Shown: piece after piece, positions 26,804 to 43,334 of the stretch | Position numbering within the stretch: the stretch's first letter is position 1 | Layout: every line of letters starts with the position of its first letter | Assembly: GCF_027533845.1 (NCBI RefSeq) | Contig: NZ_JAPZVN010000021.1 | Span: 1-64,000 of the forward strand | Reading direction: 5' to 3' | Origin: Streptomyces sp. RPT161 | Lineage (GTDB): Bacteria; Actinomycetota; Actinomycetes; Streptomycetales; Streptomycetaceae | DNA: 64,000 nucleotides | Position numbers and translations under genes: made by a program | The notes under the pieces: model-generated | Database searches by the model: none | Told to the model about the DNA's origin: nothing | The model's input: only the letters and a program-made list of their open reading frames with translations

Positions 26804-27832
26804 GTGACCGTGATCCAACGACGTGTGGTGGTCGTGGTCTACTCCGGCGTGCAGGCGCTGGACGTCACCGGGCCCATTGAGGTGTTCGACACGGTGAACC
26901 GCCGGTTAGCCGAGCAGGGGGTGGGCTACCGCATCGAGTACGTCTCCGCCGACGCGCCCCTGGTGCGCACCTCCGTCGGGCTGGTGGTCCAGGCCGCGCG
27001 GCTGGACGAGGCGGTCGGCCCCATCGACACCCTGCTGGTGCCCGGGGGCTGGGGGCTGCGCGAGGCTTTGCGGGAGCGGGAGTTGGTGTCCTGGATCCGC
27101 GACGCCGCCGCCCGGTCGCGCCGGGTGGCCTCGGTGTGCGGCGGGGCGTTCCTGCTGGCCGAGGCGGGTCTGTTGGACGGGCGGCGGGCGACCACGCACT
27201 GGGCGTACTGCGAGGAGTTCGCCCGCCGCTATCCGCGGGTGACGGTGGACTCGGGGCCGATCTTCGTGTGGGACGGCCGGTATGTGACGTCCGCGGGGGT
27301 GTCCACCGGCATCGACATGGCGCTGGCGCTGGTGGAGGCCGACCACGGTGCGGCCGTCGCCCTGGACATGGCCCGCTATCTGGTGCTGTTCTTCAAACGG
27401 CACGGCGGCCAGTCGCAGTTCAGCGCGGTGCTGGAGGCGCAGTTGGCCGACCCGCTGCCGATCAGGGCGGCCCAGGAGTGGATCCTGGGCCACCTCGAAC
27501 AGCCGCTGCCGGTGGCCGAGTTGGCGCGGCGGGCGAACATGAGCCCACGCAACTTCGCCCGGGTGTTCCGCCGTGAGGTGGGGACCACACCGGGCCAGTA
27601 CGTCGAGCGGATGCGGATCGCGCGGGCGCGTGAGCTGCTGGAGAGCACCGAACTGCCGATCAGCCATGTGGCCAGGCGCTGCGGCTTCCCGGCCGTGGAG
27701 ACCTTCCTGCGGTCGTTCGGCCGGGCCATGGGGCTCACTCCGGGCGAGTACCGGCAGCGCTTCCAGGTGCTCTCCCCCGCGGGCCTGATCGTCGCCCCCG
27801 GCAGGGACGGCTTCGCGGAGGTGGGCGCATGA
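26804..27832 (+). CDS. GlxA-family AraC-type transcriptional regulator
   Basis: A 342-residue regulator with an N-terminal DJ-1/PfpI-like domain (about residues 7-190: VVYSGVQALDVTGPIEVFDT, then SVCGGAFLLAEAGLLDG at the nucleophile elbow). The C-terminal AraC double helix-turn-helix covers about residues 225-320 (MSPRNFARVFRREVGTTPG, HVARRCGFPAVETFLRSFG). GlxA proteins respond to small molecules and often sit beside their targets. The GTG start follows the GH15 gene by 111 bases. Its stop overlaps the start of the ThDP enzyme gene (ATGA), placing it at the head of the biosynthetic operon and suggesting it activates it. Confidence 0.88.
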   Translation: MTVIQRRVVVVVYSGVQALDVTGPIEVFDTVNRRLAEQGVGYRIEYVSADAPLVRTSVGLVVQAARLDEAVGPIDTLLVPGGWGLREALRERELVSWIRDAAARSRRVASVCGGAFLLAEAGLLDGRRATTHWAYCEEFARRYPRVTVDSGPIFVWDGRYVTSAGVSTGIDMALALVEADHGAAVALDMARYLVLFFKRHGGQSQFSAVLEAQLADPLPIRAAQEWILGHLEQPLPVAELARRANMSPRNFARVFRREVGTTPGQYVERMRIARARELLESTELPISHVARRCGFPAVETFLRSFGRAMGLTPGEYRQRFQVLSPAGLIVAPGRDGFAEVGA

Positions 27833-29535
27833 CCGCGGACGCCCGGGTGCGCCTGGTCGACTACCTGGCCGGGGAGTTGGCCCGGATCGGCGCCCGGTAC
27901 GTGTTCGGCGTGGGTGGCGCGAACATCGAGGACCTGTACGACGCCGTGCACCACCAGCCGGGGTTGACCGGCGTGGTGGCGAAGCACGAGTTCTCCGCGG
28001 CCACCATGGCGGACGGCTACGCCCGGGCCACCCGGCGGACCGGTGTGGTCATGGCCACCTCCGGCGGCGGGGCGATGAACCTGGTGCCGGGACTCGCCGA
28101 GGCGCACGCCTCACGGGTGCCGCTGCTGGCACTGGTGGGGCAGCCGCCGACCGGGTTGGACGGGCGGGGTGCGTTCCAGGACTCCAGCGGCAAGGGCGGC
28201 TCCTTCGACGCGGCGCGGGTCTTCGCGCCGGTGTCCCGGTTCTGCGCCCGGGTGACCGAACCGGAGTCGTTCGCCGGACTGCTGGCAGAGGCGATCCAGG
28301 CAACGCGGACCCACCCGCGGGGTCCGGCGGTACTGCTGCTGCCCAAGGACGTACAGCAGGCCCTCGTCACCGTGCCGAGGAGCACGCCGGTACCGCCACC
28401 GGTGGTGCGGCCGGATCCGGCGGCCCTGGACGAGGCCGTGCGGCTGCTGGACGGCGCCCAGCGCGTCCTGCTGATCGCCGGTGAGGGGGTGGCCGCCTCC
28501 GGTGCCCGCGCGGAACTGGCCGAACTGGCAACGGCGTTGGGGGCGTGGGTGGCGGTCAGCCCGGACGCCAAGGACGTCTTCCCCAACCACGACCCCCGGT
28601 ACGTCGGGGTGGCCGGGGTGATGGGGCACCTCGGCGTCCAGGACCATCTGCGTCGTGCCGATGCCTGCCTGCTGGTCGGCACCCGCCTGCCGTTGATGGC
28701 CCGCGGCGGCCTGGACGAAGCGCTGCGCACCACCCCCGTGGTTTGCGTGGACCCGGAACCGCCGTTCGTCCCCGGCATCGCGCTGCGCGGCGACCCGCGC
28801 CAGACGCTGGCCACCCTCAACGCCCGACTGACGCCACGGCCCCGCCCGCACCCGGAACCCGCGGGCGACCCGCGCCCGTTGGCCGTACCGCCACCTCCCG
28901 GGGCCGGCTTGTCGTATGCCGAGGCGCTCTCCGCGATCGCCTCGGCGCTGCCCGAGCGCGCCCATGTCTTCGTGGACGCCGGGAACGTCGGAGCGAGCGC
29001 CATCCATCTGCTGCCCGCGCCGCGCGACGGCCGGTTCGTGGTGGCGGTGGGCATGGGCGGCATGGGCTACACCTTCGGCGCGGGCATCGGCGCGGCGCTC
29101 GGCACCGGTCGCCGTACGTATGTGCTGGCCGGGGACGGCGCGTTCTTCATGCACGGGATGGAGGTGCACACCGCGGTCGAGTACGCGGCCCCGGTCACCT
29201 TCGTCATCCTCAACAACAACGCGCACGCGATGTGCGCCACCCGCGAGCAGCTGTTCCAGGGCGGCGCCCGTACCGAGAACGTCTTCCGTCCGTCCGACAT
29301 CGCCGCCGGTGCGGCGGCTATGTTCCCCGACCTGGACGTGAGCCGGGCACACCGCGCCGGTGATCTGCGCCTGGCCCTGCTGCGGGGAAACGGCAACGCC
29401 GGTCCGGCGTTGGTCGCCCTGGACTTCGACCACCGGGAGATCCCCCCGTTCCTCCCCTTCCTGGCCGCCCCGGACCAGGAACCCGACCACACCGAGGAGA
29501 GCACCGATGACCGCGGACCACTCCACGTTGGCTGA
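27829..29535 (+). CDS. ThDP-dependent enzyme, acetolactate-synthase-like
   Basis: A 568-residue protein with the three domains of thiamine-diphosphate enzymes: N-terminal PYR (about 1-170), central domain (about 190-330) and C-terminal PP (about 365-550). The catalytic glutamate is Glu54 in VAKHEFSAATMADGYARA. The metal/ThDP motif starts GDG at about 435-437 and ends in VILNNN. The FAD-binding residues of true acetolactate synthase are not evident. Such enzymes decarboxylate 2-oxo acids and may ligate the product to an acceptor. Expected role here: making an acyl or aldehyde building block for the cluster. It overlaps the regulator gene by four bases and the next gene by 29. Confidence 0.85.
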   Translation: MTADARVRLVDYLAGELARIGARYVFGVGGANIEDLYDAVHHQPGLTGVVAKHEFSAATMADGYARATRRTGVVMATSGGGAMNLVPGLAEAHASRVPLLALVGQPPTGLDGRGAFQDSSGKGGSFDAARVFAPVSRFCARVTEPESFAGLLAEAIQATRTHPRGPAVLLLPKDVQQALVTVPRSTPVPPPVVRPDPAALDEAVRLLDGAQRVLLIAGEGVAASGARAELAELATALGAWVAVSPDAKDVFPNHDPRYVGVAGVMGHLGVQDHLRRADACLLVGTRLPLMARGGLDEALRTTPVVCVDPEPPFVPGIALRGDPRQTLATLNARLTPRPRPHPEPAGDPRPLAVPPPPGAGLSYAEALSAIASALPERAHVFVDAGNVGASAIHLLPAPRDGRFVVAVGMGGMGYTFGAGIGAALGTGRRTYVLAGDGAFFMHGMEVHTAVEYAAPVTFVILNNNAHAMCATREQLFQGGARTENVFRPSDIAAGAAAMFPDLDVSRAHRAGDLRLALLRGNGNAGPALVALDFDHREIPPFLPFLAAPDQEPDHTEESTDDRGPLHVG

Positions 29536-30160
29536 AGTGCCCGGCCTGATAAGGGTGGAGAACACCACCCCCGAGCAACTGGCCGAGCACTGCGCCCGGA
29601 TGACCCGGGAGAGTTATCCGCACCAGCAGGTCTACGGGCGGTACTGCACCATCGAGCAGTACGTCGACTGCCCGCCCGAGCAGGTCTACGACTATCTGCG
29701 CCAGGGGCACCACCTGGAGGAATGGACCTGTAGCCTGCGGGACTTCGGCCCCACCGACACGCCCGGGCTGTGGCTCGGGCGCGACCTGCTGGAGCCGGGC
29801 ACCGGCATCTACTGCAAGGTGGTGGCCAACTCCGAGGCGATGACGGTGGACTACCACTGCGCCTGGGACCAGGGCGAGACGCTGTGGATGGTCTATCTGA
29901 TGCGGGTGGTCCCGGCGTCCCTGGTGCTGGACGAGCCGGGCTCGGTGGTCACCTGGACCAACTGCCGCCATCCGTACTACGACGCCAACCCGTTCCCGGA
30001 GCGTGCGCCGCGCCCCGACCGGCGCTGGGTGGGCGAGTACTGGGACCTGTTCTACGCCGGTCACACGGTGGAGATGCACAACCTCAAGGCGATCCTGGAA
30101 CACCGCCACAAGGCCGGGCTTCCGGTCAGCGTGCCGCCCACGCGGGCGGTGGCCCGTTGA
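29507..30160 (+). CDS. SRPBCC-like (START/Bet v1-fold) protein
   Basis: A 217-residue soluble protein. The ATG at 29507 is used because GAGGAGAG lies six bases upstream, even though it overlaps the ThDP gene by 29 bases. The segment YGRYCTIEQYVDCPPEQVYD-YLRQ matches the start of SRPBCC domains (a hydrophobic pocket fold; polyketide cyclases, lipid carriers). Alternating beta-like stretches (VDYHCAWDQ, LWMVYLMRVV, VVTWTNCRH) and a long C-terminal helix follow. No catalytic motif is fixed in this fold. The role is probably binding or cyclising a pathway intermediate; the assignment is moderate. Confidence 0.6.
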   Translation: MTADHSTLAEVPGLIRVENTTPEQLAEHCARMTRESYPHQQVYGRYCTIEQYVDCPPEQVYDYLRQGHHLEEWTCSLRDFGPTDTPGLWLGRDLLEPGTGIYCKVVANSEAMTVDYHCAWDQGETLWMVYLMRVVPASLVLDEPGSVVTWTNCRHPYYDANPFPERAPRPDRRWVGEYWDLFYAGHTVEMHNLKAILEHRHKAGLPVSVPPTRAVAR

Positions 30161-31167
30161 CTCCGGTCAGCCTCACCGATGTCGCGGCACATCTGCCGGG
30201 CGAGCCGGTGCCCGCGGAGTTCTACACCGGCTACCCCGGGGCGGAGGACCGGCTGCGGGACAGCCCGATGTTCCGGGTGCCGCCGTTCCGGCACCATGTG
30301 GCGGAGGGGGAGAGCAACGTCGACCTGATCGAGCGGGCCGTGCGGCCGCTGATGGAGCGGCACGGCCGGGCGGCGATCCGCGGGGTGGACGTGCTGCTGG
30401 TGCACAGCCAGTTGCCGGACGTGCCGTTCGTCGGCGCGGGCACCGAGGTGGCGCGCCGCCTCGGCATGTCCCCGGAGTGGCTGGTGGACGTGGCCAACGG
30501 GGGCTGCGCGTCGTTCGTCCACATGCTGGGCCTCGCCCGGCAGTTGCTGACCACCACCTCGGCGAGGTCCGCGCTGATCTGCAACGCGCAGACCGCGGCC
30601 GGCCAGTTGTTCACCCAGTCCGAGGTGCGCGGGCTCGCCCAGGCCGCGATCCCGGGTGACGGCTGCGGGGTGGGGTACGTCACCGCGTCCGGCCCGAATC
30701 CCGTACTGGACGTGCGGGTGCGGCACATCGCCGAGTACGCGGGGGACATGACGATGGTGCGCGACGACGGCCGCAGGTACTGGGAGCCGGGCGAGGCGCA
30801 GTTGCGGATCGGCTTCACCGAGACCGGTGTCGCCCGGGTGCTGGAGCGCGGCAACCGGCTGGTCCCCGAGGTGGTCACCGAGTTGTGCAAGGATCTCGGC
30901 AGGGATGCCGCCGAGATCGGTACGCTGATCACCAACCAGCCCAACCGCACCTTCCTGCGCAACTGGCGGGAGGCACTGGGCCTACCGCCCGAACGCCACC
31001 CGGACACCTTCGACACCTGCGGCAACCTGTTCGGCGCGGCGATCCCGATCACCCTCGACCGCACCATCCGCTCAGGCGACCTGGAGGACGGCTCGTTGCT
31101 GGTCCTGGGCGGCTTCGCGCACGCGGGTGACTTCGCGGGCGCGGCAGCGGTGGAGTGGCACGGCTAG
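30157..31167 (+). CDS. KAS III-like condensing enzyme, catalytic His missing
   Basis: A 336-residue thiolase-fold protein of the 3-oxoacyl-ACP synthase III group. The nucleophile is Cys117 in ANGGCASFVHML. In place of the usual HQAN motif it has NQPN (Asn260), and Asn290 occurs in CGNLFGAAIP. A Cys-Asn-Asn arrangement favours acyl transfer or non-decarboxylative C-C bond formation over standard malonyl condensation, as with other diverged KAS III proteins. The TTG start overlaps the previous stop (TTGA), so it is translationally coupled; no other start gives the full N-terminus. A second KAS III-like gene follows the PucR gene. Confidence 0.8.
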   Translation: MTPVSLTDVAAHLPGEPVPAEFYTGYPGAEDRLRDSPMFRVPPFRHHVAEGESNVDLIERAVRPLMERHGRAAIRGVDVLLVHSQLPDVPFVGAGTEVARRLGMSPEWLVDVANGGCASFVHMLGLARQLLTTTSARSALICNAQTAAGQLFTQSEVRGLAQAAIPGDGCGVGYVTASGPNPVLDVRVRHIAEYAGDMTMVRDDGRRYWEPGEAQLRIGFTETGVARVLERGNRLVPEVVTELCKDLGRDAAEIGTLITNQPNRTFLRNWREALGLPPERHPDTFDTCGNLFGAAIPITLDRTIRSGDLEDGSLLVLGGFAHAGDFAGAAAVEWHG

Positions 31168-31301: not shown

Positions 31302-31344
31302 GCAGCCGTCGACACCCGTCGGCCATGGCCAAAGGGAGCTCAAG

Positions 31345-32661
31345 ATGTCGGTACCCGCGCACATCGCCTCGGTGCGGGCGATCACCTCAGGCACCGCCAA
31401 GGACGCCGAGAGCCCGTCAGACGTCATTCATCTGCCCAGTACACGGCCGTTAGGCGGGCACGGCTCGGTGGTGCCCGCGCTCGCGGAGGCACTGATACGC
31501 CAGGCCCCGCAACTCATCGAGCAGCTCGTTGAGTTGGCCGCGGGCCGGGACGTGGAGCACGTCCAGCAGCTGCCACCGGCCGACATCCGCCGCTCGCTGC
31601 GCGAGCACGTACTGGGCTTCCTGCGGTTCCTCGCGGACAAGCCCGTTCCCGACGACGACCCGCTCACCGTGCCCATGGCCTGGGGCCACCACCGCGCCCA
31701 GGAGGGGGTGGCCCTGGAGTCGATGCTGCGGGTGCACCGGCTGGCCACCCAACTGCTGTGGGAGAAGCTGTTCGACGAGGCCCGCGCCAGGTCACCGGAG
31801 GTGCTGCAACGGCTGCTGGACGAGAGCGGGCCGGTGTGGGACGTGCTGGACAGCTACTCGCTGGCGCTGGTCAAGGGGTACCGTTCGGCCGAGTTGACCG
31901 CCCGCCGCGAGGACGCGGCGCGCAGGGACGCGCTGTTCGACGCGCTGATCGAGGGGCGCGGTGTGGAACCGGCGGTCGCCGCGGAGGCGCGGGTCACGCT
32001 GGGGCTGCCGACCCGCGGCCGGTTCGTGGTGGTCGCCGTGGACGCGGACGCGGGCGGGTCCTTCCGTACGTTGAGCGCCGCGCTGCCCGCGCGCTCGGTA
32101 CAGGCCGTGTGGCGGCTGCGCTCGGACCGGGAGATCGGCGTACTGGAACTGGGCCGCACCGCGCTGCCGCGGCTGGTCGAATGGCTCTCCGCCGGTGCGG
32201 GTCAGCGGGTGGGGGTCTCCGGCGAGGTGGACAGCCTCGCCGACATCGCCACCGCCTACCACTTCGCGGAGACCGCGCTGCAGACGCTGCGCTACGGGAC
32301 CACGGGGGTGGCGGCCTTCGACGACCGGCTGCTGGAGGCCTTCGTGGTGACCAGTCCGAACGTCGCACAGCGGCTGGCCCAGCGGGCCTTCGGGCACCTG
32401 CTGGACTGCGCGCCGGAGGAGCGGGACGTACTGCTGACGACGATGGACGCCTGGTTCCGCAGCGGCTGTTCGGCCGCCAAGGCCGCACAGCGGTTGCACT
32501 GCCACCGCAACACCGTGCTCAACCGGCTGCGCCGGGTGGAGTCGCTCACCGGTCACTCGCTGGACGACGACCGCCATCAACTGGCCTGTCAGATGGCACT
32601 GGTGGCGGTCAACACGCTGCCGCTCACCTCACCGCCGCAGTCCGACACGGAGAACATGTAA
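31345..32661 (+). CDS. PucR/CdaR-family transcriptional regulator
   Basis: A 438-residue regulator. The C-terminal helix-turn-helix AKAAQRLHCHRNTVLNRLRR (about residues 380-399) is the PucR_C type. The middle (about 205-330) resembles the CdaR GGDEF-like domain, and the N-terminal 170 residues are an all-helical sensor-like domain. The ATG at 31345 follows GGGAG by eight bases; the frame opens 27 codons earlier without a ribosome binding site. It sits between the two halves of the biosynthetic cluster with its own upstream palindrome, so it is a likely pathway-specific regulator. The ligand is unknown. Confidence 0.85.
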   Translation: MSVPAHIASVRAITSGTAKDAESPSDVIHLPSTRPLGGHGSVVPALAEALIRQAPQLIEQLVELAAGRDVEHVQQLPPADIRRSLREHVLGFLRFLADKPVPDDDPLTVPMAWGHHRAQEGVALESMLRVHRLATQLLWEKLFDEARARSPEVLQRLLDESGPVWDVLDSYSLALVKGYRSAELTARREDAARRDALFDALIEGRGVEPAVAAEARVTLGLPTRGRFVVVAVDADAGGSFRTLSAALPARSVQAVWRLRSDREIGVLELGRTALPRLVEWLSAGAGQRVGVSGEVDSLADIATAYHFAETALQTLRYGTTGVAAFDDRLLEAFVVTSPNVAQRLAQRAFGHLLDCAPEERDVLLTTMDAWFRSGCSAAKAAQRLHCHRNTVLNRLRRVESLTGHSLDDDRHQLACQMALVAVNTLPLTSPPQSDTENM

Positions 32662-32928: not shown

Positions 32929-33915
32929 GTGACGGATGTTTTCGTCGACTCGTTCGTCTACTCACTTGGCGAGCGCAAGATCCATGTCAATGAGACGGCG
33001 GCCGCGGGCGGACTGATCTCGTCCGCGCAGGACCTCGAGTCCGCCGGGTTCCGCTGGCATCACGTGTGCGAACCGACCACCAGTGCCTACGACCTGGCGA
33101 GCGCGGTCACCCGCCGGCTCGCCGACTCCGACCGGCTCGGTGACGTCGACGCGATCGTGTACGCCACCTGCCTGCCGCTCAACGGCAACGCGGGCGACGC
33201 CGCCGAGTGGGAAGCCACGAAGGACGTCAAACACCTGATGGACTTCCCCGCGAGTCGGCTGCAGGCCGACTTCGGGCTGCACAAGGCGGTCGTCATCGGC
33301 CTCAACCAGCAGGCCTGTACGGCCATGTTGGGCTCCGTCCGGCTGGCACAGGCGATGCTCCAGGTGGAGAAGGACTGGAACCGGGTGCTGTGCGTGACAG
33401 CCGACCGGTTCCCCGAGGGTGCCAAGTACGAGCAGGCGTACAACCTGATCTCGGACGGCGCCGCCGCCTGTGTGGTCAGCCGCCAGCCCGGCGCCTTCCG
33501 TCTTGTGACGGCCCATCAGATCACCAACGGCGGCCTGGGGCAGGCGGGCGACGACGAGACGGTGGGCAGCTACTTCTCGTACACCCACCGGCTGGTGCGC
33601 GAGACCCTGGAACGTGCCGGTCTGACCGCCGCCGACCTCGACTGGGTGGTCACCCAGAACACCAACGACAAGGCGTGGCAGATCCTGGCCAGACTGCTGG
33701 GAGTCGGTTTCGAGAAGGTGTTCTTCTCGTCCATGCCGGACGTCGGCCACGTCATCTCCGCCGACAACGTGGTCAACCTCGCCGAGCTGCTCGCCACCGG
33801 GCGGGTGCGCCCGGGCCAGCGCATCGCCCTCATCATGGCGGGCTTCGGGCTGAACTGGCAGTGCCTGATCCTCGAAGCCACCGAAGCGGTGGCCGCTGCC
33901 GCCGCCCGGGACTGA
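32929..33915 (+). CDS. Diverged KAS III-like enzyme
   Basis: A 328-residue thiolase-fold protein. The nucleophile is Cys130 in NQQACTAMLGSVRLA. The region of the normal catalytic His reads TQNTN (Gln243-Asn244-Thr-Asn246), so that histidine is absent. A later GHVISADN supplies His274 and Asn280, as in some acyltransferring KAS III relatives. The GTG at 32929 is chosen because GGGAG lies nearby; the frame extends 13 codons upstream without support. It starts the second operon of the cluster and may work with the other KAS III-like protein on different carrier-bound substrates. Confidence 0.78.
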   Translation: MTDVFVDSFVYSLGERKIHVNETAAAGGLISSAQDLESAGFRWHHVCEPTTSAYDLASAVTRRLADSDRLGDVDAIVYATCLPLNGNAGDAAEWEATKDVKHLMDFPASRLQADFGLHKAVVIGLNQQACTAMLGSVRLAQAMLQVEKDWNRVLCVTADRFPEGAKYEQAYNLISDGAAACVVSRQPGAFRLVTAHQITNGGLGQAGDDETVGSYFSYTHRLVRETLERAGLTAADLDWVVTQNTNDKAWQILARLLGVGFEKVFFSSMPDVGHVISADNVVNLAELLATGRVRPGQRIALIMAGFGLNWQCLILEATEAVAAAAARD

Positions 33916-33963: not shown

Positions 33964-34884
33964 TTGAGTACATCGAACGTGCCCAAAGCCCGGCTGGCCG
34001 AGGCGCTCGCCTCGCTCGGCCCCACCGTCAGCAGGCTCAGCCACCTGTCGCAGCGCTCGTACCAGAACCCGTACACCGAGCTGGCGGCGTGGCCGAAGGA
34101 GGTCCGGCCGGAACAGGAGTGGTTCAGCAGCCCCGAGTACCTGAGCCTGCACGGCACGGAGCACTGGGAGCGGCTTGACGAGACCGCCCGTTGCCGACTG
34201 GCCTTCCACGAGGCCGCCAACTTCTACAGCCTCAACATCCACGGTGAGAAGTCCCTGATGCAGGGCCTGGCCGAACGGCTCTACCGCAAGGACCTGTTGG
34301 ACGTCTCGGAGTACCTGCACCACTTCCTGGACGAGGAGAACAAGCACAGCATCTACTTCGGCGCCTTCTGCACCCGCTACTCGCGGGTGTACCGCAGCCG
34401 CCAGTTCTCCTTCGAGGAGTCGCACGACTCCCGGTCGCGCGACATCGAGGACTTCCTCTTCTTCGCCAAGACCATGATCTTCGAAGAGATCGTGGACAAC
34501 TACAACTGGGTGCAGTCCAGGGACTCCCGGCTGCATCCGGTGGCCCGGTTCATCAACCACAACCACCACTTCGAGGAATCCCGCCATCTGATCTTCGGCC
34601 GCCGTCTGGTGACCGCGCTGTGGGAGGCCTGCGCTCCATCCTGGGGCGGGCAGACCGTCGAGGAGCTGCGGGCCTACCTGCGGCAGTACTTCACCATGGC
34701 CTGGCGTGAGTACTACAACCCGGACGTCTACGCCGACGCCGGGCTCGAAGATCCATGGGAGATCGCCGAACGAGCATGGTCCGCACCGGCGCAGCGGGAG
34801 CACCGCCGCGAGGTGTCGAAGAAGGTCGTCGGTTTCCTCACCTCGACAGGCATTCTCGACAAGGAGCCCGCCGATGCGTTCTGA
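33964..34884 (+). CDS. AurF-type diiron N-oxygenase
   Basis: A 306-residue helical diiron protein related to p-aminobenzoate N-oxygenase AurF. The ligand pattern is present in order: Glu95 (NIHGEKSL), Glu125-x2-His128 (DEENKHS), Glu174 or Glu175 (MIFEEIVDNY) and His201-x3-Glu205-x2-His208 (HHFEESRH). AurF uses the same ExxH and HxxxExxH motifs with seven ligands. Such enzymes turn amines into hydroxylamines, nitroso or nitro groups. Next to an amino acid:carrier-protein ligase, the substrate may be a carrier-bound amino acid. A TTG start with GAGGA upstream. Its 3' end overlaps the carrier protein gene. Confidence 0.82.
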   Translation: MSTSNVPKARLAEALASLGPTVSRLSHLSQRSYQNPYTELAAWPKEVRPEQEWFSSPEYLSLHGTEHWERLDETARCRLAFHEAANFYSLNIHGEKSLMQGLAERLYRKDLLDVSEYLHHFLDEENKHSIYFGAFCTRYSRVYRSRQFSFEESHDSRSRDIEDFLFFAKTMIFEEIVDNYNWVQSRDSRLHPVARFINHNHHFEESRHLIFGRRLVTALWEACAPSWGGQTVEELRAYLRQYFTMAWREYYNPDVYADAGLEDPWEIAERAWSAPAQREHRREVSKKVVGFLTSTGILDKEPADAF

Positions 34885-35134
34885 GCAGGAGATCCGTGAC
34901 AGCCTGCGGTCCTGGGTACTGGCCAAGGCCGCCGACCGGGACGGTGCGACGATCACCGACCAGACCGCGCTGTTCGAGGAGCGGTACCTGCGGTCGGTCC
35001 ATCTGCCCGAACTGCTGCTGCTGTTGGAGAGGCTGAGCGGTACGCCGATCGACGTGGAGGACCTCAACCCGGGGGACTTCCGCGACATCGACTCGATGGT
35101 GCTCCGGTTCTGCACGACGGGAGCGACGCCATGA
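34874..35134 (+). CDS. Discrete acyl/aminoacyl carrier protein
   Basis: An 86-residue acidic four-helix carrier protein. The region RYLRSVHLPELLLLLERL matches the phosphopantetheine site, with Ser in an LRS context instead of the usual DSL. It ends NPGDFRDIDSMVLRF. The ATG overlaps the AurF-type gene by 11 bases, with AAGGAG upstream. Its stop overlaps the start of the aminoacyl ligase (ATGA), so it is the most likely acceptor of that enzyme. The absence of Asp before the serine is unusual and could affect recognition by the transferase. Confidence 0.75.
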   Translation: MRSEQEIRDSLRSWVLAKAADRDGATITDQTALFEERYLRSVHLPELLLLLERLSGTPIDVEDLNPGDFRDIDSMVLRFCTTGATP

Positions 35135-36066
35135 CGGCCGTCGAGGCGCCCGCCGTCGATCCGGTACGGGCGGCGCGGCTGGCCGAACTCGGCCTGTCCT
35201 GGCAGCCGTCCGGCCAGGCGGCGCTACGCGGACCGCTGCTGCGGCTCGCCGAGGAGTGCGACCGGGCCTTCACCACCCTCGCCCAGATCTGGCAGGCGGA
35301 CGAGGAGCGCCACCCCGCCTCGCTGCCCGCCCAGCGCCTGCAACGGGTCGACTACCTGCGCTCGTTCCCGCACCAGGCGACCCTCGCCGCCCGGCTGGCC
35401 GATCAGGAGGCCAACCTGGACGCGTTCCTGGACGGACCGGTGCTGCACGAGGACGGCACCGTCGCGGTGACCGAACTCGCCGCGGTCACCCAGGTGCTGA
35501 CCCCGGCGGCCTGCTACCACCTGTTCAACGACCACCTGGGCGAGACGTTCGACGCGCCCAGGTACCTGACCACCCGCAACACCTGCTTCCGGAACGAGCG
35601 GTACTACGTTCCGCTGCGCCGGCTGAGCAGCTTCACCATGCGCGAGGTGGTCTGCCTGGGCACCAGTGCCGAGGTGGTCGACTTCCTCGAACAGGCCCGG
35701 GCGGCACTGGACGCGTTCTTCGAACTCGTCGACCTGCCCCTGGAGTGGCTGACCGCGACCGACCCGTTCTTCCGGCCGCGCGCCAACCCGCGGTACATCA
35801 TGCAGCGCGTCGAGCCCGTCAAGCACGAGGCCACCTACGGCGGCGATCTGGCCATCGCCTCGATCAACCGCCACCACGACCACTTCGGGGTCAACTTCGA
35901 ACTGACCCGGGGCGAGGAACCGGCCCACAGCGGCTGTGTCGCCTTCGGTATCGAACGCTGGCTGTTCGCCATCACCGACCGCCACGGCACCGACCCGGCC
36001 GACTGGCCGAGGCTGGCGGACGCCGCGGCCAAGGTGCGCTCCGGCCTGGGTGGAGGCAGGGTATGA
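35131..36066 (+). CDS. Amino acid:carrier-protein ligase (seryl-tRNA-synthetase-like)
   Basis: A 311-residue class II aminoacyl-tRNA-synthetase paralogue without a tRNA-binding arm. It shares with the rhizobial amino acid:[carrier protein] ligases the motif-2 region TTRNTCFRNERYY, SSFTMREVVCLG and motif 3 GCVAFGIERWLFA. The expected zinc ligands are present: Cys128 (TPAACYHL), Glu172 (MREVV) and Cys269 (SGCVAFG). These enzymes adenylate a small amino acid such as glycine or alanine and load it on the phosphopantetheine arm of a carrier protein. The gene overlaps the carrier protein gene before it and the reductase gene after it by four bases each, so a dedicated pair is likely. The amino acid cannot be predicted safely. 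Confidence 0.85.
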   Translation: MTAVEAPAVDPVRAARLAELGLSWQPSGQAALRGPLLRLAEECDRAFTTLAQIWQADEERHPASLPAQRLQRVDYLRSFPHQATLAARLADQEANLDAFLDGPVLHEDGTVAVTELAAVTQVLTPAACYHLFNDHLGETFDAPRYLTTRNTCFRNERYYVPLRRLSSFTMREVVCLGTSAEVVDFLEQARAALDAFFELVDLPLEWLTATDPFFRPRANPRYIMQRVEPVKHEATYGGDLAIASINRHHDHFGVNFELTRGEEPAHSGCVAFGIERWLFAITDRHGTDPADWPRLADAAAKVRSGLGGGRV

Positions 36067-37166
36067 GGGGAACCACCGTCATCACCGGCGCGGACGGCTA
36101 TCTGGGCCGTCAGCTCGCCGCGGCACTGCTGGCCGACGGCGACGACGACCTCGTGCTCGCCGTACGCGCCGACGACAGCGCCGAACTCGCCGCGAAGAAG
36201 GACCGGTTGGCCCAGCGGCTCGGCCCGCAGGCGCGGAGCAGAACCCGCGTCGTCGCCGCCGACCTGTCGCGGGACGACGCGCTGGCGGACATCGACACCC
36301 GCTCGGTGACCCGTATCGTGCACGCCGCCGCCGTCACCCGCTTCAACGTCGAGCGGGACCTGGCGCAGCGCGTCAACGTCGACGGCACCGCACGGCTGCG
36401 GGCGTTCGCGGCGCGCTGCGACAACCTCCAGCGGCTGGCGATGCTGTCCACGCTGTACGCGGCGGGCCGCCGGCGCGGTGACGTCCACGAGGAGCGGCTG
36501 GACGACGTGGGCTTCGTCAACCACTACGAGTGGTCCAAGTGGGCCGCGGAGGAAGAGGTGTTGGGCGCCGCCGGGGAGCTGCCGGTCTCCGTGCTGCGGC
36601 TGCCGACGCTCGTCGCCGACGACGACGGCGGCCAGGTCACCCAGTACAACGCCTTCCACAACACCCTGAAGCTGTTCTACTACGGACTGCTGTCCCTGCT
36701 GCCCGGCGACGGCGCGACGCCGCTGAGCCTGGCGACGGCGTCGTTCACCGCCTCGGCGGTCACCAGACTGCTCGACCCCGCGATCGCCGACGGCGTCTAC
36801 CACATCTGCCCCGACCCGGCCGACACCGCGACGCTGGACCAGCTCGTCGACACCGCCTTCACGGTCTTCGAGCGCGATCCGGGCTTCCAGCGGCGCGGGT
36901 TGATGCGGCCGCTCCCCTGCGACCAGGAGAGCTTCGAGGACCTGCTGTCCGCGGCCGACCTGCTGCGGGGCGGCCCGATCAACCAGTCGCTCTCCTCGGT
37001 CTCGCCGTTCGCGCACCAGCTGTACCTACCGAAGACCTTCCGCAACGACGCGCTGCGGGCCGCCTGGCCCGGCTACACGGCTCCCGACCCGCTCGCGCTG
37101 GCGGAAACCACCTGCCTACGGCTCATCGAATCCAAGTGGGGCCGCCGGACCCAGGAGACACCGTGA
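36063..37166 (+). CDS. Extended SDR, thioester-reductase-like
   Basis: A 367-residue NAD(P)-dependent extended short-chain dehydrogenase. The Rossmann motif is TVITGADGYLGRQL (residues about 5-18), followed by VVAADLSRDD and the catalytic Tyr-x3-Lys in HYEWSKWAAEEEV. The layout resembles the male-sterility/thioester reductase domains that release acyl chains from carrier proteins as aldehydes or alcohols. Its place after the carrier protein and ligase genes fits reductive release. Nucleotide-sugar epimerase is the alternative but no sugar genes are near. Both ends overlap neighbours by four bases. Confidence 0.78.
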   Translation: MRGTTVITGADGYLGRQLAAALLADGDDDLVLAVRADDSAELAAKKDRLAQRLGPQARSRTRVVAADLSRDDALADIDTRSVTRIVHAAAVTRFNVERDLAQRVNVDGTARLRAFAARCDNLQRLAMLSTLYAAGRRRGDVHEERLDDVGFVNHYEWSKWAAEEEVLGAAGELPVSVLRLPTLVADDDGGQVTQYNAFHNTLKLFYYGLLSLLPGDGATPLSLATASFTASAVTRLLDPAIADGVYHICPDPADTATLDQLVDTAFTVFERDPGFQRRGLMRPLPCDQESFEDLLSAADLLRGGPINQSLSSVSPFAHQLYLPKTFRNDALRAAWPGYTAPDPLALAETTCLRLIESKWGRRTQETP

Positions 37167-37750
37167 CGACGCTTTCCGAGAACGACCTGTGGCTGCTCAG
37201 CTTCTACCGCTCCTCCGAGATCAACGGCGCGCTGTTCTTCGGCCGGGTCGCCCGCACCCTGCGCGGCGGACCGCTACAGGCCGATGTCACCCACCACTTC
37301 GCCGACGAGGCCAACCACGCCAAATACTGGACGCGCTGCATCGAGGACCTCGGCTACAACGCCGAGAAGCTCTCCGGTGCCTACCAGGACCAGTACCTGG
37401 AAGCGGTGGGCCTGCCCGCCAACCTCATGGAGGTCATGGCGATCACCCAGGTCTTCGAGAAGCGGGTGATCGGCCAGTACCACCGGCATCTGCGGGCGCC
37501 CGACACCCATCCGCGGGTCCGGCAGACCATTGAGACGATCATGGAAGACGAGCGCTGGCACGTGAAGTACGTGCGCGACGCGCTCCAGGAGATGGCGCGC
37601 AAGTACGGCCAGCAGCTCATCGACGACACCCTCGCCCGGTTCACCGCGGCCGACGAGGAGGTCTACGCCAAGACCCTCGCCGAGTACGGCGAACGCATCG
37701 CCTTCCTCGGCGACGGCGCCGTCGACCTGAGCGTCCCCGGCAAGGCATGA
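37163..37750 (+). CDS. Ferritin-like diiron protein
   Basis: A 195-residue four-helix protein with a complete diiron ligand set spaced over four helices: Glu in YRSSEINGAL, Glu and His in FADEANHAKYW, Glu in QVFEKRVIGQYH, and Glu plus His in MEDERWHVKYV. The arrangement resembles rubrerythrin- and MiaE-like monooxygenases rather than storage ferritins. It probably hydroxylates, desaturates or cleaves a pathway intermediate with O2. The GTG start overlaps the reductase stop (GTGA). Its stop overlaps the next start (ATGA). It is the second diiron oxidase in the cluster, unlike AurF in size and fold details. Confidence 0.8.
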   Translation: MTTLSENDLWLLSFYRSSEINGALFFGRVARTLRGGPLQADVTHHFADEANHAKYWTRCIEDLGYNAEKLSGAYQDQYLEAVGLPANLMEVMAITQVFEKRVIGQYHRHLRAPDTHPRVRQTIETIMEDERWHVKYVRDALQEMARKYGQQLIDDTLARFTAADEEVYAKTLAEYGERIAFLGDGAVDLSVPGKA

Positions 37751-38622
37751 CCGAGACCGTGCTCGCCGTGTGGACGCGGCAGCCGCTGGCCACGCACACC
37801 CTCACCCGCCGGGAGCGGGACCGGCTCGCCGAACTGCCGCGCCGGGCAAGGCCGCAGTGGCTGGTCTCCCGGCACGCTCTGCGGGTGCTGCTGGGCGTGC
37901 TCGGGCTGCCGCGGGAGACCACCGGCTACGCGTTTCCGCACCGCCGGCTGTCGCTGTCGCACATCGAGGGCGCGGCGGTGGCCGCCGGCGCGGTGCGTCC
38001 GGCACCGCGGCTGGCGGGCATCGGGGTGGACCTGGAGACCGACCGGCAGGCCCGGGTGGACACCGCCCGGTTCTTCCTCGACGAGCACGAACGGTCCTGG
38101 CTGGCCTCGCTGCCCGAACACGCCAGGCCCAGTGAGCAATTGCGGCTGTGGACGGTCAAGGAGGCGCTGTTCAAGGCCGATCCGGACAACCGGCACACCG
38201 TACTGCTCGACTACCGCACCCTCGACGCGTCCGCCCGCCGCGGCAGCGCCCGCGCCGGCCCGCACCGCGAGCCGGTCTTCGGCTACGCCAGCACCCGGCT
38301 GCACGGCGCCCACCTGTCCGTCGCCGCGGCGTTCCACGGCGAGACCCGCACCCCGCAAGCCAACGCACCAGAAAGAGAGACGACAGTGCCAACCGCCGTC
38401 ACCTTCGACGAGGTCGCCGACCGCATCAGCACGACGCTGTCCATACCGGTGGAGAAGCTGACCCCGGAAACCACCCTGCGGGAACTCGCCGCGGACAGCT
38501 TCCTGCTGGTCGAGATGGCCGTCGACCTCCAGGAGGAGTTCGACACCATCTTCACCCAGGACGAACTGCGCGAGATCACCACCCTCGGCGAACTCGCCGG
38601 GCTGGTGGGCGCGAAGGTCTGA
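37747..38622 (+). CDS. 4'-phosphopantetheinyl transferase fused to a carrier protein
   Basis: A 291-residue two-domain protein. Residues 1-200 are a Sfp-type transferase: GIGVDLETD (Asp95, Glu97 bind magnesium) and LRLWTVKEALFKAD (Lys138, Glu139, Lys143). Residues about 214-291 are a carrier domain with the modification site ADSFLLVEM (Ser251). No stop separates them. GAAAGAGAG followed after six bases by an in-frame GTG at 38386 could start a free 78-residue carrier protein, so both fused and separate forms may be made. Such a fusion could modify itself and supply holo-carrier to the pathway. It overlaps the diiron gene before it; the MmpL gene follows after 70 bases. Confidence 0.85.
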   Translation: MTETVLAVWTRQPLATHTLTRRERDRLAELPRRARPQWLVSRHALRVLLGVLGLPRETTGYAFPHRRLSLSHIEGAAVAAGAVRPAPRLAGIGVDLETDRQARVDTARFFLDEHERSWLASLPEHARPSEQLRLWTVKEALFKADPDNRHTVLLDYRTLDASARRGSARAGPHREPVFGYASTRLHGAHLSVAAAFHGETRTPQANAPERETTVPTAVTFDEVADRISTTLSIPVEKLTPETTLRELAADSFLLVEMAVDLQEEFDTIFTQDELREITTLGELAGLVGAKV

Positions 38623-38692: not shown

Positions 38693-40987
38693 ATGTCGGA
38701 ACGTCTGATCCGCGCGATCGCAAGACTCCGCTGGCCGCTGCTGGCCGTATGGCTGGTGGCGCTGGTCGCGGCCGGGGTCGCCGCGCTGCCCATCGCCGAC
38801 CGGCTCAGCGGTGGCGGCTGGTACGTACCCGGGTCCGGCTCGCAGCAGGCGATCACGGCCACCCAGTCCGGCTTCGCCGACCGCGGCGCCAGCGACCTCA
38901 CCCTGCTGGTACGGGACGAGCGCAACGCCGCCGGAACCCCCGCGTTCGACCAGCGGGTGGGGCAGGCCATGCGGCAGGTCATCGGCGACAAGCGGCTCGC
39001 GGTGGTGGGCAGTTACGGCTGGCTCGACCTGTCCCCGGCGGCCCGTGGGAAGTTCGTCGGCAAGGACCGGCACACCGCCATCACCCTCGTCGGACTGAAG
39101 CTGGACGACGGCACGGCTCGCCGGGTACTGCCCGGCATCCAGACCGACATCGACCACCGCTTCGCACCACAGGGACTGCGGGTCTCACTGGTCAGCGCGG
39201 GCACGCTGTGGGGCGAGATCAACACACTGAGCCAGAAGGGCCTGCAGACCGCCGAACTCATCACGTTCCCGCTGCTGTTGGTGATCCTGCTGCTGTTGTA
39301 CCGGGGCATTGCGTCGGCGGTGGTCTCCTTCGTGGTCTCCGCGACGGCGATCGTCTTCACCCTCGGGCTGATGTCGGTACTCGCCCAGCACTTCGAGCTG
39401 TCGATCTTCGTGGAGAACGCGGCCACCATGATCGGCCTCGGGGTGAGCGTCGACTACTCGCTGTTCATCATCTCCCGTTACACCGACGAACTCGCCCGCG
39501 GCCGGGACCGCACGGCCGCGCTCGCCGCCACACTGCGCACCAGCGGCAAGACCGTCACCTTCTCCGGACTCATCGTCATCCTCGCGATGTCGAGCCTGTT
39601 CCTGGTGGACCTCAACGTCATCCAGTCGATCGCGCTGGGCATCCTGGTCGTGGTGGCCTTCGCGGTGCTGGCAGCGGTGCTCGTACTGCCGCTGGTACTA
39701 CTGCTGTTGGGCGACCGGATCCTGTGGGGCCGACTGCCCATGCAGCGGCGTGGGCCCGAGGAGCAGGGGCGGCGCTGGCGGAACGTGGCACGGCAGATCA
39801 TGCGGCGTCCGGTCCTGTTCCTGGTGGTGGCGATCGTCGCGATGGTGGCGCTCGCCTCCCCTTCACTCGGTTTGCGCACCTTCACCCCGGACGCGCGCAT
39901 CGTGCCCGAGTCCTCCCCCGTGCGGCAGGGGTACGACGCCATGCGCGAGCAGTTCGGGCCCGGTTCCGCCTCCCCCAACGAGGTGGTCATCAGCTCGGAC
40001 ACCCCGCTGAACACCGCGCGGGACAGCGGCCGGATCCTGGCGGTGCGCGACGAGTTGGCCAGGCTTCCGCACGTCACCGACGTCAACTCGCCGGTCGACG
40101 CGCTACGGGCGGTCAGTCCCGCTCGGCCGTTCGCCGCGCTGGACCCGGCGGTCTTCGACCGGCTGCCGGCCGACGCCCGCGCCACTGTCAACCACTTCGT
40201 CTCCAGCGACCGGCGCACCATCGTGCTCGAGGTCATCGCGGACAACTACGCGTCCAGCGCGCCCTCCCGCGACCTGGTCGCCGCCATGCGGTCCACCGTG
40301 GACCGGCTCGGCGCTCCCGGCCTGCACACGGTGGTGGGCGGTGAGACCGCGGAGGGCATCGACGCCAACTCGGCGATCTCGGACGGGCTGCCCTCGGTGG
40401 TGGCGGTCATGCTGGTGGTCATCTACGTGCTGCTGCTGATCACCTTCCGGTCCGTACTGCTGCCGATCAAGGCGATCCTGATCAACCTGCTCTCCCTCGG
40501 GGCGACGTACGGCGCCCTGGTGCTGGTGTTCCAACACTCCTCCGGTGCCGCTCTGTTCGGCTTCCAGCAGTTCGGCTACCTACAGAACTTCGTGCCCATC
40601 CTGCTGCTGGCGATCCTGTTCAGCCTCAGCACCGACTACGAGGTGTTCCTGCTGCACCGCATCCGCGAGGAGTACGACAGCGGGGCGGACAACACCTCCA
40701 GCGTGGCGACCGGCATGGCCCGCACCGCGCCGCTGATCTCCGGTGCCGCACTGCTGATGGTCGCGGTGTTCGGCGCCTTCGCCTTCACCGGCATCATGCC
40801 CATCCAGCAACTCGGCTTCGGCCTGGCCGTCGCCATCGCACTGGACGCCACCATCATCCGGCTGGTCGTGGTGCCCGCCGCCATGCAGCTGATGGGCCGG
40901 TGGAACTGGTGGCTGCCCGGCCGCCCGGACCGGCCCGCACCCGTCGTCAGGACGCAGGAGTCCGAGGAGTCCGTCGTCCGGTCGTAA
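38693..40987 (+). CDS. MmpL-family RND transporter
   Basis: A 764-residue inner-membrane protein with the duplicated RND layout: one transmembrane segment, a periplasm-side loop (about residues 35-190), five or six segments (about 190-345), then a second copy (segment near 370, loop to about 565, segments to about 745). The SVDYSLFIISRY and STDYEVFLLHRI motifs in each half hold the proton-relay region DY typical of MmpL proteins. Members export lipids and lipid-like metabolites. Its place in the cluster makes it the probable exporter of the product. GGAG lies upstream of the ATG. Confidence 0.88.
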   Translation: MSERLIRAIARLRWPLLAVWLVALVAAGVAALPIADRLSGGGWYVPGSGSQQAITATQSGFADRGASDLTLLVRDERNAAGTPAFDQRVGQAMRQVIGDKRLAVVGSYGWLDLSPAARGKFVGKDRHTAITLVGLKLDDGTARRVLPGIQTDIDHRFAPQGLRVSLVSAGTLWGEINTLSQKGLQTAELITFPLLLVILLLLYRGIASAVVSFVVSATAIVFTLGLMSVLAQHFELSIFVENAATMIGLGVSVDYSLFIISRYTDELARGRDRTAALAATLRTSGKTVTFSGLIVILAMSSLFLVDLNVIQSIALGILVVVAFAVLAAVLVLPLVLLLLGDRILWGRLPMQRRGPEEQGRRWRNVARQIMRRPVLFLVVAIVAMVALASPSLGLRTFTPDARIVPESSPVRQGYDAMREQFGPGSASPNEVVISSDTPLNTARDSGRILAVRDELARLPHVTDVNSPVDALRAVSPARPFAALDPAVFDRLPADARATVNHFVSSDRRTIVLEVIADNYASSAPSRDLVAAMRSTVDRLGAPGLHTVVGGETAEGIDANSAISDGLPSVVAVMLVVIYVLLLITFRSVLLPIKAILINLLSLGATYGALVLVFQHSSGAALFGFQQFGYLQNFVPILLLAILFSLSTDYEVFLLHRIREEYDSGADNTSSVATGMARTAPLISGAALLMVAVFGAFAFTGIMPIQQLGFGLAVAIALDATIIRLVVVPAAMQLMGRWNWWLPGRPDRPAPVVRTQESEESVVRS

Positions 40988-41038: not shown

Positions 41039-41659
41039 GTGGATGACTCCGCCCTCCTGCTGCTCCTGCTGGACTTCGTCTTCATCGGCGCCCTGCCCCG
41101 ACTCTTCTTCCGCTCGGACGGCAGCTTCAACCTGAGGTGGTGGCTGACCGCCCTGCCGTTCTTCCTGTGCCCGCTGTACATCGCGGCGGGGCTCGCGATC
41201 GGCTGGCAGCCGTTCGCCTCGGGTACTCCGCGCACCGTACTGACGCTGATCTCCGTGGTGTTGAGCGTGGCGTCCATCGCGCTGATCTTCATGACGCTGG
41301 GCACCCACCGCATTCCGCTGGCGCTGTGGCACCAGGACAACGACGCGCCACGGCACATCGTGACCTATGGCGCCTACCGCCGGATCCGGCACCCGTTCTA
41401 CTCCTCGTTCCTGCTGGCCTTCCTCGCGGGCCTGCTCGTCTACCCGCACTGGGGCACAGTGCTGTTCGCGGTCTACGGGCTGGTGTCGCTGAACACCACG
41501 GCCGCCCGCGAGGAACGTCGGCTGAGTGCCTCGGAGTTCGGCGCCGAGTACCGCCGGTACATCGCCCAGAGCGGCCGCTTCCTGCCCCGGCTGGGCAGGA
41601 TCGAGGACACCGCCGAGCCCGCGCGCCCGGCGGAAACCGCCCAGGTCATCGAGGGATAG
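41039..41659 (+). CDS. ICMT/PEMT-like membrane methyltransferase
   Basis: A 206-residue membrane protein with about five hydrophobic segments. The C-terminal motif YGAYRRIRHPFYSSFLLAFL followed by REERRL and FGAEYRRYIAQ is the SAM-binding signature of the isoprenylcysteine carboxyl methyltransferase/phospholipid methyltransferase family. Bacterial members methylate lipid-like or hydroxylated substrates at the membrane. A role in O-, N- or carboxyl-methylation of the cluster product is inferred. The GTG start has AAAGGATG upstream. It lies 51 bases after the MmpL gene and 13 bases before the ligase gene. Confidence 0.83.
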   Translation: MDDSALLLLLLDFVFIGALPRLFFRSDGSFNLRWWLTALPFFLCPLYIAAGLAIGWQPFASGTPRTVLTLISVVLSVASIALIFMTLGTHRIPLALWHQDNDAPRHIVTYGAYRRIRHPFYSSFLLAFLAGLLVYPHWGTVLFAVYGLVSLNTTAAREERRLSASEFGAEYRRYIAQSGRFLPRLGRIEDTAEPARPAETAQVIEG

Positions 41660-41672
41660 GACGGTTCTGGAC

Positions 41673-43334
41673 GTGTCACGTCTGATTTCCTGGCTCGCCG
41701 ACCCGCACCCGCAACGCGGGGTGCGCTTCGCCGCCGACGGGGGCGACTGGGAGTTCGTCTCCTACCGTGAACTCGCCTCCTCGGCCCGCCGGATGGCCAC
41801 CGAGATGGTGTCGGCCGGGGTGCGCCCCGGCGATGTGGTCTGCCTGCTGATGCCGTCTGGCCGGGACTGCCTGGCCGCGCTGTTCGGCACCTGGGCGGCG
41901 GGCGCCACGATCTCCCCGCTGCTGCCTCCCTCGTTCCAGTCCGACAACGAGTACACCGAGTACGTCTCCGGAATCCTGCGGCAGGCCGAGCCCGCCCTGG
42001 TGGTCACCGCCGAGACGTACCGCCCGCTGGCGGCCGAGGCGATGGTCCGGGCGGGCCGGTCGGACGAACCGTGGATCCCGCGCGAGGGAGCCACCGAGAT
42101 CCCCATCGAGGACCACGACCGCGAGGGGATCGCGCTGCTCCAGTTCACCTCCGGCTCCACCGGACAGCCCCGCGGCGTCCGGGTCTCCTGGGACAACCTG
42201 GCGGCCAACCACGCGATGCTGAGCCGCCTGCTCGACTGGCGGGACAGCGACTCCGTCGTCTCCTGGCTGCCGCTCCACCACGACATGGGACTGATCGGCT
42301 GCTGCCTGTTCCCGTTCGCCGCGCAGGGCGAACTGTGGCTGATGCGGCCCGAGCAGTTCATCCGCGACCCCGCACGCTGGCTTGAGTGCCTCGCGCCGGG
42401 CAAGGCGACGCACTCGGCGGCGCCGTCGTTCGCCTTCGCCTACGCCGCCCGACGGGTGAAGCCGCAGCGACTGGCCGAGCTGGACCTGTCCAGCTGGCGC
42501 AGTGTGGTGGTCGGGGCCGAGGTGGTCGATCCGGCGGCGCTGGACGCGTTCGCCCGGTTCGCCGAGCCGGTGGGTTTCTCCCGCGACACCTACCTGCCCT
42601 CGTACGGGCTGGCCGAGAACACCCTGGCGGTCACCGGCGCCGAGGGACCGGTCGTGGTGGTGCGCCCCGACTGGTCCTCGATGCGGCTCGGCGAGCCGGT
42701 GCGCATCCAGGAGGCGGGGAAGCTGGGCGACCGGCCCATCGAGCCGGGCTCCGGCTGGCTCGTCGGCCACGGCGCCCCGCACGAGGCGGACGGCGTGGGC
42801 GTGCGGATCCTGGACGCCGAGGGGCGTCCGCTGCCGGACGGGCACCTCGGCGAGGTCGCCGTCACCGGTAGTTCGGTGGCTCAGGGCTACCACGGCGGCC
42901 GGGAGGGCGGCTCCACCCGGTTCGTCGACGATGAACTGCGCACCGGGGACGCCGGGTTCGCGCACGACGGGCAGCTGTTCGTGCTGGGCCGGATGGGAGA
43001 CAGCCTCAAACTGCGCGGCCGCAGTGTGTACATGGACGACCTGGACGCGAAGGTCGCCGCGGCGGCCCGGCTGGACAAGGACCGGATAGCCGTGGTGGCG
43101 GTCAACGACCGCGGCCGGGTCGGACTCGCCGTCTTCGTGGAGTCGGCGCCCGGGCCGTGGACGGACGCGGTGACCGAGACGCTCCGCGGCGAACTGGGCC
43201 CCGAGCCCTCGCTGACCCTGGTCGCCGGGCGGCGCGGCCTGCTCAAGCGGACCACCAGCGGCAAGCTGCGACGGCGGCACATGTGGCAACTCCTCCAGGA
43301 GGACAAGCTGAAGTCGGTGACCGTCATCAACTAG
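41673..43334 (+). CDS. Fatty acyl-AMP ligase (FAAL-type)
   Basis: A 553-residue member of the adenylating superfamily. The ATP motif is LLQFTSGSTGQPRGVRVS (about residues 153-170), with SWLPLHHDMGLIG, a FAAL/long-chain type block, then SYGLAENTLAVTG, LRTGDAGF and the terminal TTSGKLRRRHMW. FAALs make acyl-AMP from a free fatty acid and pass it to a carrier protein. This is the expected entry point of the lipid part of the product, with the carrier proteins at 34874 or 38386 as acceptors. The GTG at 41673 gives a typical N-terminus. The last eight bases overlap the convergent symporter gene, marking the cluster's right end. Confidence 0.86.
   Translation: MSRLISWLADPHPQRGVRFAADGGDWEFVSYRELASSARRMATEMVSAGVRPGDVVCLLMPSGRDCLAALFGTWAAGATISPLLPPSFQSDNEYTEYVSGILRQAEPALVVTAETYRPLAAEAMVRAGRSDEPWIPREGATEIPIEDHDREGIALLQFTSGSTGQPRGVRVSWDNLAANHAMLSRLLDWRDSDSVVSWLPLHHDMGLIGCCLFPFAAQGELWLMRPEQFIRDPARWLECLAPGKATHSAAPSFAFAYAARRVKPQRLAELDLSSWRSVVVGAEVVDPAALDAFARFAEPVGFSRDTYLPSYGLAENTLAVTGAEGPVVVVRPDWSSMRLGEPVRIQEAGKLGDRPIEPGSGWLVGHGAPHEADGVGVRILDAEGRPLPDGHLGEVAVTGSSVAQGYHGGREGGSTRFVDDELRTGDAGFAHDGQLFVLGRMGDSLKLRGRSVYMDDLDAKVAAAARLDKDRIAVVAVNDRGRVGLAVFVESAPGPWTDAVTETLRGELGPEPSLTLVAGRRGLLKRTTSGKLRRRHMWQLLQEDKLKSVTVIN

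Follow-up and report, generated by a model that had tools for sequence, protein, structure and literature searches.

A conserved gene set joining an aminoacyl-carrier ligase, an AurF-like diiron protein and fatty-acyl functions, with a tentative assignment to N-oxidised lipid synthesis

The question raised by this locus is whether a long run of closely packed genes, with members pointing to amino acid activation, nitrogen oxidation and fatty-acyl chemistry, encodes a single biosynthetic pathway, and what such a pathway might make. The genes lie in a 64-kb stretch of DNA, analysed as a whole and termed the window, which belongs to a genome of 7.69 Mb in 139 contigs. Gene calling gave 15 open reading frames between positions 26804 and 43334, all on the plus strand and labelled A to O, as follows.

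A, start of the unit A-D (26804-31167), plus strand: GlxA-type regulator
B, 27829-29535, plus strand: ThDP enzyme (Pfam)
C, 29507-30160, plus strand: SRPBCC protein (Pfam, under the cut-off)
D, 30157-31167, plus strand: first KAS III-like protein, without the HQAN-type His (Pfam ACP_syn_III)
E, 31345-32661, plus strand: PucR-type regulator (HTH_30, GGDEF_2)
F, 32929-33915, plus strand: KAS III-like protein, likely an acyltransferase (ACP_syn_III, Cys130-His274-Asp279)
G, 33964-34884, plus strand: predicted AurF-like diiron N-oxygenase (Pfam AurF)
H, 34874-35134, plus strand: small carrier protein (Ser41)
I, 35131-36066, plus strand: amino acid:carrier protein ligase, class II synthetase-like (homology to Bll0957)
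J, 36063-37166, plus strand: thioester-reductase-type extended SDR (NAD_binding_4, TIGR01746)
K, 37163-37750, plus strand: second ferritin-like diiron protein, ADO-like model (fold match)
L, 37747-38622, plus strand: phosphopantetheinyl transferase (PPTase) with a fused acyl carrier domain (ACPS, PP-binding)
M, 38693-40987, plus strand: predicted MmpL-type exporter (MMPL, 301 bits)
N, 41039-41659, plus strand: PEMT/ICMT-type membrane methyltransferase (PEMT, 23.8 against a cut-off of 25)
O, 41673-43334, plus strand: fatty acyl-AMP ligase-like enzyme (AMP-binding, 180.6 bits)

A previous sequence-only reading had described fifteen consecutive plus-strand genes with many 4-bp overlaps, and this was borne out by gene calling, with overlaps of exactly 4 bp in six adjacent pairs (A/B, C/D, H/I, I/J, J/K and K/L) and longer ones in G/H (11 bp) and B/C (29 bp). 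The family names proposed at that time were upheld by Pfam and NCBIfam, weakly for C, N and the second diiron protein K. In the Pfam analysis, a ThDP enzyme (B), AurF (G), ACP_syn_III (both D and F), the class II synthetase core (I), NAD_binding_4 (J), ACPS and PP-binding (L), MMPL (M) and AMP-binding (O) were assigned, and the SRPBCC match of C (25.9) fell below its cut-off of 27.4. Modular PKS and NRPS genes, stated to be absent, were indeed not found inside the window cluster. Two details required revision. Both of the carriers said to accompany their own transferase are present, but the second has no gene of its own and forms the C-terminal part of the PPTase L. The HQAN-type His is missing in both KAS III-like proteins, as had been noted, but the suggestion that they lack a catalytic His does not hold for F, which has an invariant Cys130-His274-Asp279 triad.

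The view that all fifteen genes constitute one cluster was not sustained, as two units could be distinguished. The genes B-C-D were observed together in 25 of the 25 loci read, and the core was adjoined only in three Streptantibioticus loci. In one genome (G054), A-B-C-D and the core are located on different contigs, and in two other Streptantibioticus genomes the whole of A-O was kept together with both flanks. Conversely, E-O is present without an adjoining A-D in Streptomyces fildesensis, S. orinoci and others. Since B-D lies apart from the core elsewhere and Streptomyces genomes have E-O with no A-D beside it, A-D (26804-31167) is treated herein as a separate operon, outside the pathway of E-O; a single fifteen-gene pathway was rejected on the independent linkage of B-C-D, and the ThDP enzyme, the SRPBCC protein and the first KAS III-like protein, formerly counted as pathway members, belong to this separate operon. 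Of 395 Streptomycetaceae genomes, 40 contain the SRPBCC gene C. The trio (27829-31167 in the window; L086-L114) is conserved in approximately 10% of the sampled genomes of this family, followed in two loci (L111, L112) by a HisC-like aminotransferase gene. A scytonemin-like reading of B and C was dropped, with matches far under the cut-off.

A search for the gene set in other genomes was performed with the G alignment on one genome per species and recovered 35 core loci. Among the neighbours of G, F was present in 35/35 loci, H, I and J each in 32/35, K in 28/35, L in 27/35 and N in 22/35, several of the gaps in these counts being contig ends, and an AMP-ligase gene was located near the core in most loci. 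Linkage of the regulator E to the core was confined to Streptantibioticus and Streptomyces (7/35 loci). The core F-G-H-I-J-K-L, with an AMP-ligase and N, is found in nearly constant order in Actinomycetota, Acidobacteriota, Omnitrophota, Nitrospirota and Melainabacteria and in Oligoflexus-type and proteobacterial MAGs. Within the actinobacteria, F-G-H-I-J-K-L was observed in Streptantibioticus, Streptomyces, Catellatospora bangladeshensis, Sphaerisporangium, Mycobacterium simulans, Micromonospora, Nocardia and Mangrovihabitans. The typical arrangement in Acidobacteria, Omnitrophota, Nitrospirae, Melainabacteria and proteobacterial MAGs is AMP-ligase-N-F-G-H-I-J-PPTase-K-ACP, so that the PPTase and the ACP, fused as L in the window, are separate genes flanking K; in most non-actinobacterial loci the AMP-ligase is unlike O and lies upstream of N. 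In Oligoflexus and Silvanigrellales (L079, L082), the same order is retained minus I between G and J, and amino acid charging must therefore come from elsewhere. Two loci of Obscuribacterales (L076, L083) contain approximately 1 kb of extra sequence between I and J, with a TPR-like open reading frame at L076:9054-10022. This conservation of the order of F-O across phyla is far beyond chance, and F-G-H-I is the smallest common unit. The identity of G to the window protein is about 43-53% in other phyla, indicating that the spread does not reflect recent copying. The cassette is broad yet rare: an F profile at an E-value of 1e-60 retrieved only the window genome among 396 genomes across the phylum, and ligase identity above 50% was observed in 11 of 395 genomes of the family. 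Because the same order recurs in many phyla, the core looks like a widespread pathway.

The conserved residues and folds point to the probable functions of these proteins. The Pfam AurF match of G (117.4 bits against a cut-off of 29.6) covers residues 21-296, and E83, E125, H128, E174, H201, E205 and H208 do not vary among 35 sequences and line up with the corresponding positions of L001, another AurF-family protein encoded in this genome; a profile of G gave no sequence match in the PDB. A seventh His has been described as characteristic of N-oxygenases (PMC13061610), and from its sequence G keeps the full predicted N-oxygenase ligand set of six metal ligands plus the extra His. Two more AurF-family matches, on opposite strands, occur elsewhere in the window genome (G000 contig C1:212245-214239). 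The small protein H has an invariant Ser41 and no Pfam hit. The ligase I matched the Bradyrhizobium ligase Bll0957 (3mey_A) with an E-value of 1.4e-26, and its C128, E172 and C269, which we take to be the zinc ligands, are invariant in 36 sequences; with 135 bits against a cut-off of 357 for NCBIfam NF005479, I is a relative and not the same equivalog. In F, C130, H274 and D279 are invariant in 39 sequences, and His274 and Asp279 fall on the GHxxxxD motif when F is aligned with ChlB3; the usual HQAN-type KAS III His is missing from F. The model of F (pLDDT 93.8) matched ChlB3 (Z 34.7), FabHA (34.3), DpsC (34.1) and CerJ (33.2) with scores that are tied. For K, the Pfam scores were 22 for AurF (cut-off 29.6) and 24.3 for rubrerythrin (cut-off 22.8), and a profile search of the PDB returned weak ferritin-like matches only. 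The top structural match of the K model (pLDDT 87.5) was ADO, with a Z of 19.5 over 184 residues, which is modest for a helical bundle; Foldseek matched ADO (E about 5e-4) and PaaA/PaaC equally, and the diiron ligands are generic for ferritin-like enzymes. As helical bundles match easily, the likeness to ADO is taken as a lead only. The PEMT match of N, under the cut-off in the window, exceeds it in the Acidobacteria orthologue.

More distant relatives of the ligase suggest the kind of chemistry that may be involved. Streptomycetaceae ligases with 34-43% identity to I are likewise neighbours of an AurF-like gene, in most cases together with a gene for a carrier. A nitronate monooxygenase gene (PF03060) lies next to many such trios, and a methyltransferase gene and MetK lie next to others. 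According to He and Ryan (2021), as cited in PMC9967187, glycine-nitronate pathways bifurcate into denitrification or O-methylation, and the distant trios would fit these two types by their gene content. Six of the loci with an AurF-like gene, a ligase and a small carrier (L016, L017, L022, L025, L026 and L029), most of them adjoined by a methyltransferase or an S-adenosylmethionine synthetase gene, are candidate producers of O-methyl nitronates. In the trees of both I and G, all F-linked sequences fall on one side of a branch with a support of 100, suggesting that the window cassette is a third branch beside the denitrification and O-methylation types. Like the glycine-nitronate cassettes, whose outcomes are enteromycin-type O-methylation or denitrification, it would pair an AurF-like diiron oxygenase with a carrier-bound amino acid; however, F, J, K, PPTase-ACP and an AMP-ligase are linked to its trio, and its G and I each fall in a clade separate from theirs. 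Neither a nitronate monooxygenase (by Pfam, among the 15 genes) nor a soluble nitronate methyltransferase was found beside the trio in the window, and N is a PEMT/ICMT-type membrane protein, whereas the methyltransferase of L016 is soluble.

Herein, we tentatively propose that E-O encodes a two-carrier pathway to a small lipid whose amino-acid head is N-oxidised, a reading to which we give somewhat less than an even chance. From the gene set, the synteny, the residues and the folds, we infer the substrates, the reactions and their order as follows. The ligase I would adenylate an amino acid, most likely glycine by analogy with its relatives, and load it onto H, and G would oxidise the carrier-bound amine to a hydroxylamine, a nitroso or oxime group, or a nitronate. 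The PPTase domain of L would prime the carriers and O would load the ACP domain of L with a fatty acid. With its Cys-His-Asp triad of the acyltransferase type, F would then join the fatty acyl chain and the N-oxidised aminoacyl unit, and its donor could be either of the two thioesters; such a reaction would not need malonyl decarboxylation, which fits the missing usual KAS III His. Subsequently, J might reduce the carrier thioester to an aldehyde, K might oxidise the product of J, possibly removing the formyl carbon like an aldehyde-deformylating oxygenase, N would methylate an oxygen and M would export the lipid. Points that weigh against this scheme are the lack of I next to G in L079 and L082, the modest fold match of K, the low PEMT score of N in the window and the F-G-H-I units described below. 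A bolder version, in which F uses the carrier-bound nitronate or oxime as a nucleophile in a non-decarboxylating reaction and J and the ADO-like K then reduce and remove the carboxyl carbon to give a new lipid class, is regarded as doubtful. To our knowledge, bond formation from an enzymatic nitronate by a KAS III-like enzyme has not been described so far. The sequence-only reading had arrived at a lipid carrying an N-oxidised amino-acid-derived group; this stays the best guess, and it is strengthened by the nitronate monooxygenase or methyltransferase and MetK genes adjoining the distant G-H-I trios.

Several known systems resemble parts of this cassette. In the ham cluster of fragin and valdiazen, the AurF homologue HamC oxidises carrier-tethered valine and reductive release has been proposed (PMC11659414). 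An AurF homologue acting on a carrier-tethered amino acid and a reductase domain for release would be common to ham and E-O; ham has the NRPS-like HamD with HamA/B/E/F/G, whereas E-O has freestanding parts and an aaRS-like ligase for loading. In the lit cluster of Streptomyces aureus LU18118, a FAAL, an ACP, a KAS III and the AurF-like N-oxygenase LitN are present, the product, lipothrenin, is a fatty N-hydroxy amino acid, and deletion of LitN leaves deoxy amides, with hydroxylation after acylation proposed (PMC10616846). By analogy, the ham and lipothrenin precedents would fit the logic proposed for E-O, and the closest relatives of E-O are the glycine-nitronate cassettes and, by gene inventory, lipothrenin. 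Dob3, AzoC and VlmB carry out ferritin-type diiron oxidation of nitrogen, as is predicted for G, but hydrazine-forming genes were not recognised among the 15 genes, and no VlmA/VlmO/VlmR-type transfer enzymes, as used in azoxy, valanimycin-type pathways, were recognised among their family assignments. The cyanobacterial acyl-ACP reductase/ADO pair resembles J-K as a thioester reductase adjoining a ferritin-like diiron protein; however, J is an extended SDR and K is only approximately 15% identical to ADO. Amycomicin (AmcQ, P450s) was considered and set aside, as its gene content differs. A review of FAALs makes no mention of an N-oxygenase. No characterised cluster with the E-O set was found in the open-access literature searched, in agreement with the sequence-only reading, in which the set was not recognised, and subscription papers could describe one. 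Each enzyme type is known, and we could not find their combination and multi-phylum spread described.

The main uncertainty concerns F, and the variant loci bear on it. Units of F-G-H-I without a detected FAAL or ACP alongside were observed in four loci (L063, L064, L068, L070), which suggests that F may act on something other than a fatty acyl-ACP and may instead move the oxidised aminoacyl group off H. In Hamadaea and Catellatospora coxensis, F-G-H-I-J is followed by DUF3419 (BtaA-like) and GNAT genes; such DUF3419-linked variants (L063, L064, L066, L069, L070), most with the GNAT gene, are hosted by Micromonosporaceae, Nocardia and a Deltaproteobacteria MAG. In Streptomyces sp. ODS25, the gene for I lies close to F-G-H and a radical SAM protein is encoded there as well; at L068:7718-14054 F-G-H has I on the opposite strand, then a radical SAM protein and an apparent carrier/condensation-domain protein. 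In two loci (L043 and L044, of genomes G120 and G090), the neighbour of a rearranged set is a type I PKS whose KS has DSAQSSS, like that of KSQ loading domains; these loci also contain a P450 and two copies of K each, identical over the aligned stretch, and L044 has open reading frames for PAS-LuxR-type regulators. A rather unlikely reading is that F is a shuttle of the ChlB3 kind, transferring the N-oxidised aminoacyl group from H to the ACP of L, or to a hydroxyl or other acceptor, with the oxidised glycyl unit as a starter or decoration and the fatty acid entering elsewhere. The inseparability of F from G-H-I even where no FAAL or ACP was seen, the likeness to ChlB3 at the His and Asp positions and the type I PKS beside the rearranged sets all favour such a transfer. 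However, most loci contain an AMP-ligase and an ACP along with the cassette, which points to a fatty acyl group as the partner of F. Compared with the ChlB3, CerJ and DpsC acyltransferases, F has its His and Asp in alignment with ChlB3 and fold matches with Z of 33-35, on a level with FabHA; identity in the structural alignment is about 21-23%, and partners and substrates are unlike.

The order of the steps could also differ. As in lipothrenin synthesis, N-acylation might come before hydroxylation of the amide by G and reduction by J, giving a metal-binding fatty hydroxamate. The FAAL, ACP, KAS III and LitN of the lit cluster, the deoxy amides left by the LitN deletion, and the hypothetical proteins LitK (85 aa) and LitL (311 aa), which match H and I in size, argue for this order (PMC10616846). 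Nevertheless, LitK and LitL were likened to H and I by inventory and size, the lit annotation contains no counterparts of the thioester reductase J or of K and N, and the nearest sequence relatives of G-H-I point to nitronate chemistry, so that this order is considered unlikely. The lit cluster also differs in its extra ThiF, GMC oxidoreductase, acyl-CoA dehydrogenase and GDSL lipase genes, which are not in E-O.

It is also conceivable, and in our judgement quite improbable, that G and K oxidise carbon, through hydroxylation, desaturation or halogenation of a carrier-bound acyl group, and that the product lacks an oxidised nitrogen. A precedent is provided by dimetal enzymes related to AurF, for example CylC, which act on the carbon of ACP-bound fatty acyl chains and have FAAL and ACP partners. 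On the other hand, none of the seven N-oxygenase ligands is missing from G, and its gene occurs together with those for an aminoacyl carrier ligase and a carrier, which speaks against this reading.

Thus, the cluster of an amino acid:carrier ligase, an AurF-type enzyme, fatty-acyl activation and export described in the sequence-only reading is supported in its classes of chemistry, but not in its extent, four genes (A-D) lying outside, and the present study adds its distribution over many phyla. A gene order common to Streptantibioticus, Mycobacterium simulans, Acidobacteria, Omnitrophota and Melainabacteria suggests one conserved small molecule or building block. If the proposed pathway is correct, E-O would broaden the roles of aaRS-like ligases and diiron N-oxygenases, and would reveal a use of carrier-bound N-oxidised amino acids that are neither methylated nor denitrified. 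The enzymes are compact and freestanding, which should make their reconstitution easy.
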